From NCBI GenBank assembly GCA_016771945.1, contig QZLF01000002.1, positions 496,001-560,000 on the forward strand: a stretch of 64,000 nucleotides of DNA. The letters are read 5' to 3'. Of the stretch, positions 1,688-61,743 are shown one piece after another. The stretch comes from Candidatus Leucobacter sulfamidivorax (GTDB lineage: Bacteria; Actinomycetota; Actinomycetes; Actinomycetales; Microbacteriaceae). The position numbers and the translations under genes are program-made. The notes below the pieces were generated by a model. It saw nothing but the letters and a program-made list of their open reading frames with translations, searched no databases and had not been told where the DNA came from. Within the stretch, counting starts at the first letter, position 1; the number at the start of each line of letters is the position of its first letter.

Positions 1688-4600
1688 CTACACCGAGAAG
1701 TACTTCGCCTCGGGATGGTGGAAGACGAAGGCGTCGGTCGACTGCTCGGGGTGCAGCTGCAGCTCCTCCGACAGCTCGACGCCGATGCGCCCCGGTCTCA
1801 GCAGCTCCACGACCTTCGTGCGATCCGCCATGTCGGGGCAGGCCGGGTAGCCGAGCGAGAAGCGGGCGCCGCGGTACTTCAGCTTGAAGAAGTCCTCGAC
1901 GCTCTCGGGCTCCTCGGCGCCGAATCCCAGCTCGCCGCGGATGCGCTGATGCCAGTACTCGGCGAGCGACTCCGTCAGCTGCACCGCGAGGCCGTGCAGC
2001 TCCATGTACTCGCGGTAGCGGTCGCCTGCGAACAGTTTCGCCGTGTGCTCGTCGACCCGCGATCCGACCGTGACGAGCTGCACCGCGAACACGTCGGGCT
2101 GACCGGAAGCCTCGACGGCCTCGCGTGAGCGGATGAAGTCCGCGAGGCACAGGTGACGGTCGCGCCGCTGCCGGGGGAAGGCGAAGCGCAGGCGCTCGGC
2201 GCCGACGGGACCTCCGGATCCGCCATCGGGGGCGAGGATCTCTCCTTGGTCTCGACGGGCTTGACCGGCGGAGAAGGCCCGCTCCAGCCCCTCGCCGTGG
2301 TGCAGGATCGCGACCTCGTCGCCATCGCTGTACGCGGGGAAGTAGCCGTAGACGACCGAGGCGTCGAGCATGCCCTCGGTCTGCATGCGGCCGAGCCACT
2401 CGCGCAGCCGGGGGCGCCCCTCGCTCTCGACCAGCTGCTCGTAGCTCGCCGTGCCCTCGCCGCGGCCCGAGCGCAGACCCCACTGCCCCATGAACACGGC
2501 CCGCTCGTCGAGCAGCGCCGCGTAGTCGGCGAGCGGCACGCCCTTGACGATGCGGGTGCCCCAGAACGGGGGAGCGGGTACGGGGTTGTCGGCGGCCACG
2601 TCGCTGCGGGCCGGGAGGTCCGCCTCCTCGGTCACCGTGAGCTGCGCGCCGCGACGGTGGATCCGCTTCTTCAGCGGAGGCAGGCCCACCTCATCGGGCG
2701 AGGCGCCGCGGGCGACCTTCACGAGCGGCTCCATGAGCGCGAGTCCCTCGAAGGCGTCCTTGGCGTAGCGCACCTCGCCCTCGTAGATCTCGGCGAGGTC
2801 GTCCTCGACGTAGGCCCGGGTGAGCGCCGCCCCGCCGAGGATCACCGGGTACTTCCTCGCGAGCCCGCGCGCGTTCAGCTCCTCGAGGTTCTCCTTCATC
2901 ACGACCGTCGACTTCACGAGCAGCCCGCTCATGCCGATCACGTCGGCGCCGTGCTCCTCGGCCGCCGCCACGATCTCCGAGATCGGCTGCTTGATGCCGA
3001 TGTTCACGACGGTGTAGCCGTTGTTCGTCAGGATGATGTCGACGAGATTCTTGCCGATGTCGTGCACGTCCCCGCGCACGGTGGCGATCACCATCGTGCC
3101 TTTCGACGCGGATTCCCCCTCGACCTTCTCCATATGCGGCTCGAGGAATGCGACGGCGGCCTTCATCGTCTCTGCGGATTGCAGCACGAAGGGCAGCTGC
3201 ATCTCGCCGGCGCCGAAGCGCTCGCCGACCACCTTCATGCCCGCGAGCAGCACGTCGTTCACGATGCCGAGCGCCGGGTGGCCGTCGTCGAGCGCCAGCT
3301 GGAGGTCGTCCGCGAGACCCTTCTGCTCGCCGTCGATGATGCGTCGCTCGAGGCGCTCGGTCACGGGCAGGGCCGCGAGCTCGGCCGCGCGCTGGTCGCG
3401 CATGGAGGCGAGGTCGACGCCGCTGAAGATCTCGAGCATGCGCGCGAGCGGATCGTACGTCAGGTTGCCGTCGGCGTCGTACTCCCGGCGGTCCCAGACG
3501 AGGTCGAGGGCGACCTGGCGCTGATCCTCGGGAATCGAGGCGAGGGGCAGGATCTTGGCGGCGTGCACGATGGCCGAGTCGAGCCCCGCCTGCACCGCCT
3601 CGTGCAGGAAGACCGAGTTCAGCACCACCCGGGCCGCGGGGTTGAGACCGAAGGAGACGTTCGAGACGCCGAGCGTCGTATGCAGCCCCGGGTACTTCGC
3701 GGTGAGCTCGCGGATCGCCTCGATCGTCTCGATCGCGTCGCGCCGGGTCTCCTCCTGCCCGGTGGCGATGGGGAAGGTCAGCGCGTCGACGATGATGTCG
3801 CACTCGCGCATGCCCCACTCCGCGACGAGGGCGTCGACGAGGCGGGAGGCGATCCGCACCTTGTCCTCGCGCGTGCGCGCCTGCCCCTGCTCGTCGATCG
3901 TGAGCGCGATCAAGGCCGCCCCGTGCTCCTTCACGAGCGGCATGATGCGCGCGAAGCGGCTCGTCGGTCCGTCGCCGTCCTCGTAGTTCACCGAGTTCAC
4001 GACCGGGCGCCCGCCGATGAGCTCGAGGCCGGCCTGCAGCACGGCCGGCTCGGTCGAGTCCATCACGATGGGCAGGGTCGAAGCGCTCGCGAGCCGGGAG
4101 ACCACCTCGCGGGCGTCCGCCGCGCCGTCGCGCCCGACGTAGTCGACGCAGACGTCGAGCAGGTGCGCGCCGTCGCGGATCTGCGCCTTCGCGATCTCGA
4201 CGCACTCGTCCCAGTCGCCCGCGAGCATCGCCTCGCGGAACGCCTTCGAGCCGTTCGCGTTCGTGCGCTCGCCGATCGCGAGGAAGGAGGCGTCCTGCTT
4301 CAGCGGCACGGCCTGGTAGAGGCTCGAGACCTCGTCCTCGCGCGCCGGGGTGCGCGGAGCGGGGGCGGATCCGCCCAGCCTCTCGACCACCGCGCGCATG
4401 TGCGCGGGCGTCGTGCCGCAGCAGCCGCCGACGAGCGACAGCCCGAACTCGCGCACGAACTGCTCCTCGGCGACCGCGAGCTCCTCGGGGGTGAGCGGGT
4501 AGACGGCGCCGTTCGGCCCGAGCACGGGGAGCCCCGCGTTCGGCATGACCATGACCGGCACCTGCGAGTGCTTCGACAGGTAGCGCAGGTGCTCGCTCAT

Positions 4601-5314
4601 CTCGGCGGGTCCCGTGGCGCAGTTGAGGCCGATCGCGTCGACGCCCATCGCCTCGAGCGTGGCGAGCGCCGCCCCGATCTCGGAGCCCATGAGCATGGTG
4701 CCCGTCGTCTCGACCGTGACCTCGACGAAGATCGGCAGCCGCACCCCCGTGCGCTCGGCGGCGAGCTTGCAGCCGTTCACGGCGGACTTCGTCTGCAGCA
4801 GATCCTGGCTGGTCTCGATGAGCAGCGCGTCGGCGCCGCCCCGCGTGAGGCCCACCGCCTGCAGCGCGAAGGTCTCCTTCAGATGGGCGTACGTCGTGTG
4901 CCCGAGGCTCGGCAGCTTCGTGCCGGGGCCGATCGAGCCCAGCACCCAGCGCGTGCGGCCGTCGGCCGCCTCGGCGGCCTCCACCGCCTCGCGCGCGATG
5001 CGCGCGCCGGCCTCGGAGAGCTCCTCGATGCGGTCGTCGATGCCGTAGTCGCCGAGATTCGACCAGTTGGCGCCGAAGGTGTTCGTCTCGATCGCGTCGA
5101 TGCCGACCGCGAGATAGCCGTCGTGGATCGCCCGGATCATGTCGGGGCGCGAGACGTTCAGGATCTCGTTGCAGCCCTCGAGCCCCTGGAAGTCCTCGAG
5201 CGTGGGGGCGGCGTCCTGCAGCTGCGTGCCCATGGCGCCGTCGGCGATGACGACGCGCTCGCGCATCGCGGTGAGCAGGGCTTCGGATCGAGGCGGGAGC
5301 TGCGGGTCGTTCAC
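1688..5314 (-). CDS. metH: cobalamin-dependent methionine synthase
   Basis: Transfers the methyl group of 5-methyltetrahydrofolate to homocysteine via methylcobalamin in the cytosol, the last step of methionine synthesis. At 1208 residues it is full length. Domains in order: homocysteine-binding TIM barrel (about 1-320) with zinc-ligand cysteines in GLNCATGP and GGCCGTTP (near residue 296); pterin-binding barrel (about 340-620); B12 cap and B12-binding domain with DVHDIGKN, whose His (near residue 750) is the lower cobalt ligand; and the AdoMet activation domain up to the C-terminus. The GTG start at 5314 is preceded by a -10-like hexamer 6 nt away, suggesting a leaderless message; an ATG five bases upstream is out of frame. 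Odd point: the activation domain carries an extra stretch of about 25 residues around AFSAGQARRDQGE that coincides with a palindromic repeat-like DNA segment. No cobalamin riboswitch box was seen upstream. Confidence 0.97.
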   Translation of the reverse strand: MNDPQLPPRSEALLTAMRERVVIADGAMGTQLQDAAPTLEDFQGLEGCNEILNVSRPDMIRAIHDGYLAVGIDAIETNTFGANWSNLGDYGIDDRIEELSEAGARIAREAVEAAEAADGRTRWVLGSIGPGTKLPSLGHTTYAHLKETFALQAVGLTRGGADALLIETSQDLLQTKSAVNGCKLAAERTGVRLPIFVEVTVETTGTMLMGSEIGAALATLEAMGVDAIGLNCATGPAEMSEHLRYLSKHSQVPVMVMPNAGLPVLGPNGAVYPLTPEELAVAEEQFVREFGLSLVGGCCGTTPAHMRAVVERLGGSAPAPRTPAREDEVSSLYQAVPLKQDASFLAIGERTNANGSKAFREAMLAGDWDECVEIAKAQIRDGAHLLDVCVDYVGRDGAADAREVVSRLASASTLPIVMDSTEPAVLQAGLELIGGRPVVNSVNYEDGDGPTSRFARIMPLVKEHGAALIALTIDEQGQARTREDKVRIASRLVDALVAEWGMRECDIIVDALTFPIATGQEETRRDAIETIEAIRELTAKYPGLHTTLGVSNVSFGLNPAARVVLNSVFLHEAVQAGLDSAIVHAAKILPLASIPEDQRQVALDLVWDRREYDADGNLTYDPLARMLEIFSGVDLASMRDQRAAELAALPVTERLERRIIDGEQKGLADDLQLALDDGHPALGIVNDVLLAGMKVVGERFGAGEMQLPFVLQSAETMKAAVAFLEPHMEKVEGESASKGTMVIATVRGDVHDIGKNLVDIILTNNGYTVVNIGIKQPISEIVAAAEEHGADVIGMSGLLVKSTVVMKENLEELNARGLARKYPVILGGAALTRAYVEDDLAEIYEGEVRYAKDAFEGLALMEPLVKVARGASPDEVGLPPLKKRIHRRGAQLTVTEEADLPARSDVAADNPVPAPPFWGTRIVKGVPLADYAALLDERAVFMGQWGLRSGRGEGTASYEQLVESEGRPRLREWLGRMQTEGMLDASVVYGYFPAYSDGDEVAILHHGEGLERAFSAGQARRDQGEILAPDGGSGGPVGAERLRFAFPRQRRDRHLCLADFIRSREAVEASGQPDVFAVQLVTVGSRVDEHTAKLFAGDRYREYMELHGLAVQLTESLAEYWHQRIRGELGFGAEEPESVEDFFKLKYRGARFSLGYPACPDMADRTKVVELLRPGRIGVELSEELQLHPEQSTDAFVFHHPEAKYFSV
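2248..2266. repeat. short palindromic (REP-like) segment inside metH
   Basis: GGTCTCGACGGGCTTGACC is an imperfect inverted repeat (GGTC...GACC outer arms). It resembles a palindrome I recall as common between genes in Microbacteriaceae (GGTCGAGCTTGTCGAGACC, three mismatches to the reverse strand). It lies in frame in the extra residues of the MetH activation domain. The resemblance is from memory and not verified. Confidence 0.4.
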
Positions 5315-5326: not shown

Positions 5327-5381
5327 GGCGCGGGCGGATGGGGGGATGATGAGGTGCCAGGGTCTTGACGTCCGTCACCTA

Positions 5382-5538
5382 TGCCATTCCGTGCACGCAG
5401 GGCGCCCGAATGCGGGAAGGCTCCGCGGCGCACGAGAAGCATGCGGCACACGAGAAGCATGTCGAAAGGTCAATAGTCGTGGTCCGTTTCGAAGAACGCC
5501 ACGATTATTGACCTTTCGGGGCGGTTCGTGACGGGTCT
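5382..5538. repeat. dispersed palindromic element, family P1, copy 1
   Basis: Related along its length to the second copy at 25081-25212. The core is a long hairpin at 5463-5518: 20-nt arms starting CGAAAGGTCAATA, pairing with one G-T wobble around a 16-nt loop. It is followed by a conserved tail GGCGGTTCGTGACGGGT. On the left, a degraded form of the GC-rich hairpin of copy 2 is visible, and a stretch CACGAGAAGCATG is tandemly duplicated here but single in copy 2. Together with flanking bases it fills the 305-nt divergent gap between metH and the hydrolase gene, in which I see no gene. The AT-rich arm is unusual for this genome. Confidence 0.8.
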
Positions 5539-5619
5539 TTCAGAAGACCCTGGATGATGAAGTGCGTGCGGCGGCGCCCGAAGGCGGCGCGAGGACGCCG
5601 CGAGACGGGAGGCCGGATC

Positions 5620-20788: not shown

Positions 20789-20861
20789 TGCCCCCGGAGG
20801 GATTCGAACCCCCGACCTACGGTACCGGAAACCGGCGCTCTATCCCCTGAGCTACGGAGGC
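20789..20861 (-). tRNA. tRNA-Arg (anticodon CCG)
   Basis: 73-nt cloverleaf on the minus strand: acceptor GCCTCCG pairing with CGGGGGC, D-arm GCTC/GAGC, anticodon loop TTCCGGT with CCG at 20828-20826, T-loop TTCGAAT. Position 33 is U and 37 is G, as expected. CCA is not encoded. Reads CGG codons. It lies 198 nt from the divergent argS gene. Confidence 0.97.
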
Positions 20862-25080: not shown

Positions 25081-25212
25081 TGCCTTCCCGCAGCACGACC
25101 GGCTGCGGGAAGGCCTCGCAGCGCACGACAAGCATGCCGAGAGGTCAATAATCGTGGTGTTCCTTGAAAAACACCACGATTATTGACCTCTCGGCGCGGT
25201 TCGTGACGGGTT
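25081..25212. repeat. dispersed palindromic element, family P1, copy 2
   Basis: Two hairpins. Hairpin I: GCCTTCCCGCAG (25082-25093) with its exact complement at 25103-25114. Hairpin II: perfect 25-bp arms (25137-25161 and 25170-25194) starting CCGAGAGGTCAATAATC, around an 8-nt loop. Then the same GCGGTTCGTGACGGGTT tail as copy 1 at 5382-5538. In the stem, A-T pairs of copy 1 (CGAAAGG/CCTTTCG) become G-C here (CGAGAGG/CCTCTCG), a compensated change. No protein is expected from it. Confidence 0.88.
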
Positions 25213-25629
25213 CTCCAACCTCAGGGGTCGTACCCCGCGTGTGAGCGGGACCGGTCGCAGGCGTACCATGTCTCTCGTCGGTGGCGAAGACCGGTGCCCC
25301 GCCTGCTTCGCTGGAATTCGAGGCAGTGGTTGCGGGCGTCCGACCCCGGCGCATCCCGGTGAGGGTGGGCGATCCCTGTAGGATGGGGAGGTCCGACCGG
25401 GAACCAAGACTCCGTTCGCTCGGCTTCAGGGGCCAATCCGGGTCCGCTCGCCAGGGGGATCGCACCGGCCGCGGCCGCCGGGCTCTCCGCCCGCGGGCCG
25501 CGCGTCGACCGCGATCCCGATCCCGGCGCCCCGCCGTTCGGTCGCGTCGTTCGCGATCGGGACCGCGGGAACTCGAACGGGAGCGTGCGACGAGCGCAGG
25601 CACCGAGACGAACACGGGAGAATGACGAA
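25213..25629 (+). promoter_or_regulatory. long structured leader region of hom-thrB
   Basis: About 400 nt with no convincing gene. TAGGAT at 25379-25384 is a candidate -10, which would give a GC-rich leader of about 240 nt. In it, CGCGATCCCGATCCC (25510-25524) can pair with GCGATCGGGACCGCG (25553-25567), 13 of 15 positions, shortly before the ribosome site GGGAG near 25615. This could attenuate hom-thrB. I recognise no known riboswitch, T-box or Thr/Ile-rich leader peptide. A 114-codon open frame across it has no family features. Confidence 0.4.
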
Positions 25630-36417: not shown

Positions 36418-36499
36418 GTGAAAGCACCCCTTGGGGGTGAGAGCACCCATTGGGGGTGACCCCCTGGGGGTGCTTTCACCCCCGAGGCATGCTCTCGCG
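36418..36499. repeat. palindromic element, family P2, copy A
   Basis: 82 nt between the convergent ends of prmC and an MFS gene. GTGAAAGCACCCC (36418-36430) pairs perfectly with GGGGTGCTTTCAC (36467-36479), and GAGAGCA (36439-36445) can pair with TGCTCTC (36490-36496), allowing alternative folds. It aligns along its full length with copy B at 61664-61743. Confidence 0.85.
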
Positions 36500-61187: not shown

Positions 61188-61667
61188 ATGGGCGACAGGC
61201 ACGAGTACCGCATCGGCGTCGAGTGGATCGGCAATCGCGGCACGGGCACGAGCGGCTACCGCGACTACGGCAGGCAGCTCGTCGTGCGGACCGCCGACGG
61301 CCGCGAGCTCGCGGGCTCGGCCGATCCGACGTTCCACGGCGACCGCAACCGTTGGAACCCCGAGGAGCTGCTCGTCGCCGCCCTCGCCCAGTGCCACATG
61401 CTCTCCTACCTCCACATGGCCGTGCGTGCGGGCGTGGTCGTCACGGCCTACGCCGACGAGGCCGAGGGGACGATGGTGCAGGAGGGGCTCGGCGGCCGCT
61501 TCACCGAGGTGCTGCTGCGTCCGGTCGTGACCGTCGCCGACGCCTCGATGGTCGACGCGGCGCGGGCGGCGCACGCCGAGGCCTTCGAGCACTGCTTCAT
61601 CGCGAGTTCGGTCAACTTCCCCGTCCGCCACGAGCCCACGATCCTCGTCGCCGACCCTCTGCGGTGA
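61188..61667 (+). CDS. OsmC/Ohr family protein
   Basis: 159 residues. The two redox cysteines of the family are present: Cys69 in ALAQCHMLSYLHMA and Cys136 in AFEHCFIASSVNFPV. WNPEELLVAALAQC is the OsmC helix motif. Family members reduce organic hydroperoxides with dihydrolipoamide or mycothiol-type thiols; the exact substrate is unknown. The stop codon lies within repeat element P2 copy B. Confidence 0.9.
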   Translation: MGDRHEYRIGVEWIGNRGTGTSGYRDYGRQLVVRTADGRELAGSADPTFHGDRNRWNPEELLVAALAQCHMLSYLHMAVRAGVVVTAYADEAEGTMVQEGLGGRFTEVLLRPVVTVADASMVDAARAAHAEAFEHCFIASSVNFPVRHEPTILVADPLR

Positions 61668-61743
61668 AAGCACCCTTCGGGGGTGAGAGCACCCGTCGGG
61701 TGACCTGCCCCAGGGGTGCTCTCGCCCCAAGTATGCTCTCGCG
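61664..61743. repeat. palindromic element, family P2, copy B
   Basis: Aligns over about 80 nt with copy A at 36418-36499: same GTGAAAGCACCC start, internal GGGGGTGAGAGCACCC, then GGGGTGCT(C/T)TC and a final (C/T)ATGCTCTCGCG. Here GAGAGCACCC (61685-61694) pairs with GGGGTGCTCTC (61713-61723). It starts in the OsmC stop codon and runs toward metG. Confidence 0.85.

Follow-up and report, generated by a model that had tools for sequence, protein, structure and literature searches.

The repeats closest to those described here are MITEs of the ERIC, RUP and Correia type, SPRITE, the REP/RAYT (GTAG) and CGTC palindromes, and TRIT. MITEs of the type named are 100-250 bp in size, and TRIT is a conserved dispersed family. 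BOX and RUP are described as having terminal inverted repeats and target duplications, and the ERIC copy numbers given are 30 for E. coli K-12 and as many as 711 for Photorhabdus (PMC10969869, PMC3049150). SPRITE is presented as a dispersed, terminator-like hairpin repeat that is enriched near gene 3' ends and in which an 18-bp duplex precedes a U-rich tract (PMC3049150). For REP/RAYT repeats, the account in PMC3733652 gives stems of 5-13 bp (GTAG) and 8-9 bp (CGTC), with a tag, and has the CGTC repeats lacking a dedicated transposase. TRIT figures as a terminator model in an actinobacterium, from the mycobacteria (PMC3526491).

We have analysed a stretch of 64,000 nt from the genome of Candidatus Leucobacter sulfamidivorax, called the window below, which contains two copies of a long palindrome. 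As a whole, the results favor the view that the family to which they belong consists of non-autonomous MITE-like insertion elements, a reading to which we assign a probability of about 0.74, because the copies are dispersed, share inverted-repeat ends and are flanked by direct repeats. Like the ERIC, RUP and Correia elements they are short, strongly base-paired, mostly intergenic and without a transposase gene. Unlike them they have another sequence, their copy number of 24 is near the low end and the arms of their core are more conserved than the rest. The features of the two copies, in window coordinates, are as follows; R1 and R2 are models described below.

5345..5357, + strand: left direct repeat GATGATGAGGTGC, candidate target-site duplication of copy 1; it abuts the element, is 12/13 identical to the right repeat and is part of the seven-copy test
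5358..5552, + strand: whole element of copy 1, 195 bp, ends CAGGGTCTTG...GAAGACCCTG, recognised from the repeat family
5358..5460, + strand: A-half of copy 1 (nhmmer E 3.3e-16, not among the seeds)
5425-5442/5443-5460, + strand: 18-bp tandem duplication private to copy 1, absent from the other 10 of 11 aligned copies
5461..5520, + strand: core palindrome of copy 1 (arms, R1 match, folding against shuffles)
5553..5565, + strand: right direct repeat GATGATGAAGTGC of copy 1, holding ATG 5554, the start of a mechanical ORF
25082..25114, no strand assigned: extra hairpin of copy 2, with 12-bp arms 25082-25093/25103-25114; by eye no counterpart among the other 10 aligned copies
25088..25135, + strand: partial A-half of copy 2 (R2 match C2:521088-521134, E 1.8e-5, with this copy not in the model; nhmmer E 3e-8)
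25136..25195, + strand: core palindrome of copy 2, with perfect 26-bp arms (arms, R1 match, folding against shuffles)
25196..25227, + strand: B-half remnant of copy 2 (GCGGTTCGTGACGGGTTCTCC...), from the 11-copy alignment; right limit approximate

Both palindromes had been proposed in a sequence-only reading of the window, and their arms, their folding and the matches to a half-arm all confirm them. The arms of the copy 2 core (25136-25161/25170-25195, + strand) are 100% complementary across an 8-nt gap; they had been called perfect, correctly, and 25 bp long, one less than the 26 bp measured. The inner arms of copy 1 (5463-5482/5499-5518) have the reported 20 nt and single wobble, and are 95% complementary. 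Relative to 200 dinucleotide shuffles of the + strand, the cores of copy 2 and copy 1 fold with z values of -11.9 and -8.0, respectively, and 0/200 shuffles did as well. Within the window, the half-arm AGGTCAATARTCGTGG with up to 3 mismatches matches only the four arms of the two copies, and 0/100 shuffles gave as many matches. The same reading was accurate about the tail GCGGTTCGTGACGGGT, which is present in both copies, about the paired stem change from CGAAAGG/CCTTTCG to CGAGAGG/CCTCTCG, about the tandem duplication in copy 1 and about the contrast with the surroundings, since the two cores have a G+C content of 48% and 50% and the window as a whole 72%. It went astray in taking two hairpins as the common form, the outer hairpin being peculiar to copy 2, and in limiting the element to 5382-5538, which is too short for copy 1, where the hairpin lies inside the longer element. 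The two copies are 84% identical over 94 nt by BLAST. They are not remnants of one segmental duplication, a possibility raised at the same time: when a 1601-nt query around copy 1 is compared with copy 2, the match is confined to the element, and outside the arms the mean identity among the 11 aligned copies is 52-62%.

By Pfam domains, the neighbors of copy 1 are a metH-type gene (1688-5314, minus strand) and an alpha/beta-hydrolase gene, and those of copy 2 are genes for a lysA-type decarboxylase and a homoserine dehydrogenase. The mechanical start of the hydrolase gene, ATG 5554, is inside the right direct repeat; the in-frame ATG 5620, behind GGGAGG (5607-5612), looks the likelier start. 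A simple promoter scan places a sigma-70-like match (9/12) at 25125-25152, where it overlaps the left arm of copy 2; shuffles lead one to expect 0.0.

A BLAST search of this genome with copy 2 returned 27 rows; as a palindrome is matched on both strands, they represent 15 places. From these 15 copies we built the covariance model R1 (Infernal), which finds 24 distinct places at E<=1e-3, 15 of them its own source copies; a further place (C2:88879), with an E value of 0.84, was left out of the 24. Further copies, whose absence would have counted against the sequence-only reading, thus exist in this genome. The core is 60 nt long in 20/24 copies. All 24 lie outside the genes predicted by our own gene finder, which is small, uncurated and trained on the window (9 between tandem, 8 between divergent and 7 between convergent genes). 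When 11 copies are turned to one orientation and aligned, identity is 78-84% in the arms, 62% in the A-half, 61% in the B-half and 52% in the loop. Something therefore keeps the arm sequence itself, which the notion of a neutral relic leaves unexplained and which counts against the MITE-like reading.

From the alignment it is also clear that the hairpin forms no more than the center of a larger element. When the sequences flanking all 24 cores were searched with nhmmer, the A-half, whole or in part and up to about 115 nt long, was found beside 11 of them, 8 of which are seeds; the three non-seeds are L010 (E 1.6e-16), copy 1 and copy 2, in which the match covers just the inner 55 nt. The long copies have their A-half on a single side of the core, which gives the elements an orientation. 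R2, a sequence model built from 8 rows of the A-half, matches copy 1 at C2:501358-501441, window 5358-5441, copy 1 being itself in the R2 alignment. R2 detects no strong A-half away from a core in this genome, where the weak matches are C1:1300703 (E 0.0015), C4:272741 (E 0.013) and others weaker still; six congeners gave it nothing at E<=0.003. At their outer ends the elements carry inverted repeats of the C(C)AGGGTCTTC type. Both ends could be placed in 7/24 copies, which measure 195 (copy 1), 262, 253, 223, 244, 121 and 119 bp; in the remaining 17/24 they could not be, some of these being judged by eye alone. In the copy at C3:399180 there is a match (E 3.5e-4) between the opposite end and positions 1-55 of the A-end model; the inverted repeat may therefore be long, if imperfect. 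The seven delimited copies are flanked by direct repeats of length 5-13, weak in L137, L003 and L018. Their summed score is 32, whereas 5000 re-pairings of the flanks averaged -4.8 and never exceeded 15; 4/7 of these pairs had already been spotted by eye before this test. Copy 1, for example, lies between GATGATGAGGTGC and GATGATGAAGTGC.

Taken together, the 24 dispersed copies, the terminal inverted repeats, the target-site duplication and the lack of coding capacity support, for this genome, the earlier suggestion of a MITE-like element mobilised in trans. A full copy, about 195-262 bp long, comprises an inverted repeat, the A-half, the 60-nt palindromic core, the B-half and a second inverted repeat, and there are forms of about 120 bp as well. 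The element would have been moved or copied, and its target duplicated, by a transposase that acted on the ends in trans; this enzyme may since have been lost. The mobiliser search covered two transposase families, RAYT and ISL3, and found it in neither. The ends GGGTCTTC, which resemble ISL3 ends, had suggested ISL3, but there are 0 ISL3 matches in the genome, whose assembly is 94% complete. The RAYT transposase (PF01797) was found in 0/13 genomes, this one included, and a control in the same search matched 5/14. Although the elements resemble REP/RAYT and CGTC repeats in being short palindromes in species-specific families, they differ in their arms, of 20-26 bp in the two window copies, and in having, by eye, no tag common to the 11 aligned copies; a REP element in the RAYT sense, another of the earlier proposals, is not supported, its transposase having been found in none of the genomes searched.

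A 23-nt end sequence (up to 3 mismatches) occurs 5 times in this genome, always at hairpin copies. An end-sequence scan of 299 genomes of the family has matches in 35, this one included, with one or two scattered matches in each of the others. The nearest congeners, judged by the flank of copy 1, are G241 and G224 (86-87% nucleotide identity over about 640 nt). Neither has an R1 match under the stricter Infernal filters; both are drafts, G241 just 76% complete. In G241 the gene adjoining copy 1 has a different neighbor and there is no clean empty site. At the G244 site orthologous to our copy L014 the sequence CGACCTCTCG lies 59 nt from the facing stop, versus 61 here, perhaps as a half-lost palindrome. 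CCTCTCG is present there at that position; in an unanchored test the alignment is not significant, since 233/3000 random windows and 15/87 intergenic ones score as high. The same convergent gap (G244 L228:17550-17700) holds repeated units like CGCCGTCGATCCTGCC beside this possible lone right arm.

How the copies are placed relative to genes bears on the best surviving rival, that the palindrome is a bidirectional intrinsic terminator in which inner stem, A/U tract and outer stem are arranged symmetrically and serve the genes on both sides, as in pneumococcal SPRITE or TRIT. We consider this unlikely. Compared with random 60-nt placements in the intergenic gaps of the window and of ten 20-kb stretches of the same genome, a facing gene 3' end lies within 60 nt of 6/24 copies (24% expected) and within 125 nt of 11/24 (37% expected, P 0.25), and 8/24 copies, copy 1 among them, lie between divergent genes with no facing 3' end at all (30% expected). 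This genome thus has no enrichment near gene 3' ends, and random intergenic placement fits a tolerated insertion element and not a terminator. The core also departs from SPRITE in being symmetrical and without a tail, and TRIT, compared by description and not by sequence, likewise differs in view of the random placement here. Four copies (L014, L018, L020 and L021) do carry TTTTT after the inner stem, as a terminator should; copies 1 and 2, however, read ATTATT with no U run, and the simple scan called no terminator-like site at copy 2.

In related bacteria the same explanation fares better. Two further Microbacteriaceae, Leucobacter chinensis (G051) and Subtercola lobariae, have 14 and 10 places, respectively. 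All 10 in S. lobariae are within 60 nt of a gene 3' end (30% expected, P 5e-6). In L. chinensis 10/14 are within 125 nt (28% expected, P 0.001) and 3/14 within 60 nt (16%, P 0.38), and in congeners 11/16 are within 125 nt (27%, P 5e-4), this count using 16/20 places and omitting four of G244. For S. lobariae and L. chinensis the null comes from the DNA surrounding the copies, and for the congeners from stretches of G246, G096 and G244, 200 kb in each. Convergent genes flank 11 of 21 further loci of the family, and A-tracts and T-tracts lie between the inner and outer stems in the L. chinensis and G244 copies. Their placement gives the palindromes of the relatives the look of SPRITE-type terminator repeats. 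We therefore keep the terminator explanation for the relatives and disfavor it, on placement, for the copies of the genome analysed here, which are better accounted for as MITE-like insertions.

The relatives' palindromes raise the question of how they are linked to ours. R1 has matches in 20/198 other genomes of the family and in 5/53 congeners under the stricter filters; because it scores structure as well as sequence, its matches in other genera are biased toward the look of our own family. As far as these matches were read, they lack the outer ends, and the palindromes are mostly about 60 nt long with other inner stems. The core is 60 nt in 9/14 L. chinensis copies (61 in the other five) and in 10/10 of S. 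lobariae, and the outer half-site GARAGGTC recurs across this genome and its relatives. Common half-site and common length speak for some link between our core and the relatives' palindromes, through descent or through the same recogniser. All 14 L. chinensis places have the exact arm GGTCAAAAAGTGTCGA with its mirror; about 6/10 of S. lobariae keep both 19-nt arms, GAGAGGTCGAAATCTCTCC/GGAGAGATTTCGACCTCTC, and four are changed (read by eye). The congener G244 has 11 places, of which the seven read carry GARAGGTCRAAA with varying inner stems. A near-constant inner stem therefore holds for only the two genomes, and our own genome and G244 are looser.

Pattern scans give a similar picture. A scan of named genomes with GAGAGGTCRAAAN{22,44}TTTYGACCTCTC, which allows 46-68 nt between the outer bases (54 nt apart in a 60-nt core) and so is less biased than R1 toward length, though not toward the half-site, returned 12 stretches. 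L. chinensis accounts for three of them and S. lobariae for eight; the last is from an AT-rich MAG and is probably unrelated. An earlier scan of this kind with our own dialect found 0 stretches, the records of our own genome possibly being excluded there. In a class-wide scan 25/296 genomes match, ours included, and among the matches listed only those of our genome are palindromic by eye. A palindrome scan of 200 kb in each of G246, G096, G244 and our own genome (G000) found no CGARAGG arms in G246 or G096; it is an insensitive scan, which recovered just 2/6 known copies in the stretches of G000 and 1/2 in those of G244.

Some further observations concern these palindromes. Four in S. lobariae (L252, L254, L258 and L264) extend outward by 7-11 paired bases, one mismatch allowed, of which the inner four (AATC/GATT) are common and the remainder varies by copy, as if by local template switching or by selection as longer hairpins. 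Our copy L136 (C4:106574) and L109 (G209:C27:26220) are hairpins of different dialects upstream of the same gene pair, whose proteins are 84% and 88% identical; in G209 a small predicted reading frame separates the hairpin from the gene pair. Arms of the sequence GGGGTGARAGCACCC define a second dispersed family of palindromes, found at window 36434-36482 and 61661-61728 and at L230:715-763, L235:2248-2296 and L236:12042-12090. With up to 2 mismatches these arms have 5 matches in the window against 0.56 expected, 6 (three facing pairs) in 200 kb of our own genome and, in 200 kb each, 3 in G246, 1 in G096 and 1 in G244. Finally, G121, of the same genus as L. chinensis, has at L061, L072 and L091 a palindrome family with TTGACGAAAAGCAGGGTG or near-variant arms, once as two neighboring copies.

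The constancy of arms and length bears on a further alternative, that the palindrome is the DNA target of a sequence-specific protein, which may be a regulator, a recombinase or a factor in chromosome organisation, and whose changes the dialects would track. Binding to the hairpin had been among the first suggestions, and is possible. The recurrence of GARAGGTC at near-constant length favors such a target, as does the retention of arms while loops diverge, with both exact 16-mers in 14/14 L. chinensis copies. Against it, the few genomes with R1 matches imply that nothing essential is involved, gene neighbors are hardly common between genomes (a few pairs, which we judge, by estimate and not by computation, to be no more than chance), inner stems vary in our genome and in G244, and there is no protein candidate. 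We regard this alternative as somewhat less probable than the terminator. A broader idea, about as unlikely as the terminator, is that several Microbacteriaceae contain a class of 60-nt intergenic palindromes, with GARAGGTC as outer half-site and a species-specific inner stem, that marks a trans-acting recogniser, a protein or transposition machinery, of shifting specificity; our MITE would then have been built around such a site.

It remains to consider the pairing of the stem. Over 15 copies, pairing is kept in 91.3% of the 345 cells of a hand-written stem. Two-sided changes occur in 18 cells, where shuffles give 9.6. The covariation score of 0.213 compares with 0.133 in shuffles; a value as high was reached in 0/500 of them, and slid structures gave at most 0.079. 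Pairing across copies is therefore genuine, even though the number of pairs with a two-sided change, 6, was equalled in 158/500 shuffles and is not exceptional. The sequence-only reading had gone on from pairing to selection for it, a step that is too strong. Template switching at replication is described as able to match both arms in one event (PMC8794818), and paired changes need not mean selection on RNA because template switching can also make them. In a loop-inversion test for template switching the loops proved nearly self-complementary.

Selection on RNA should favor G-U over A-C. On the strand predicted to be transcribed, in copies of four sets that have exactly one facing gene 3' end, we counted 24 G-U and 20 A-C, so the wobble test is flat and the covariation of the stem does not by itself show selection on RNA; a first count of 25 G-T to 12 A-C was discarded, as it mixed copies with A-halves in opposite directions. 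The covariation term of RNAalifold is small (-0.78), and an Rfam search of the window matched only a tRNA (20789-20861) and nothing at either copy. A structured RNA under pairing selection, be it the small RNA first proposed or a 3'UTR element, is therefore very improbable in spite of the covariation, which template switching could equally produce, and the element of this genome has no sign of working as RNA. For the MITE-like element that we prefer, the core arms may stay matched because hairpins formed by single strands template their own repair through template switching, because a protein binds the arms, or both.

These elements would constitute a new MITE-like family in Microbacteriaceae, as repeats of this type were not found described for Leucobacter or Microbacteriaceae in the open-licence literature. 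They also provide a worked example of the point that covarying stems alone do not show RNA selection. The dialects of the different species, for their part, offer a natural experiment for asking why long palindromes of bacteria stay similar to one another inside one genome.
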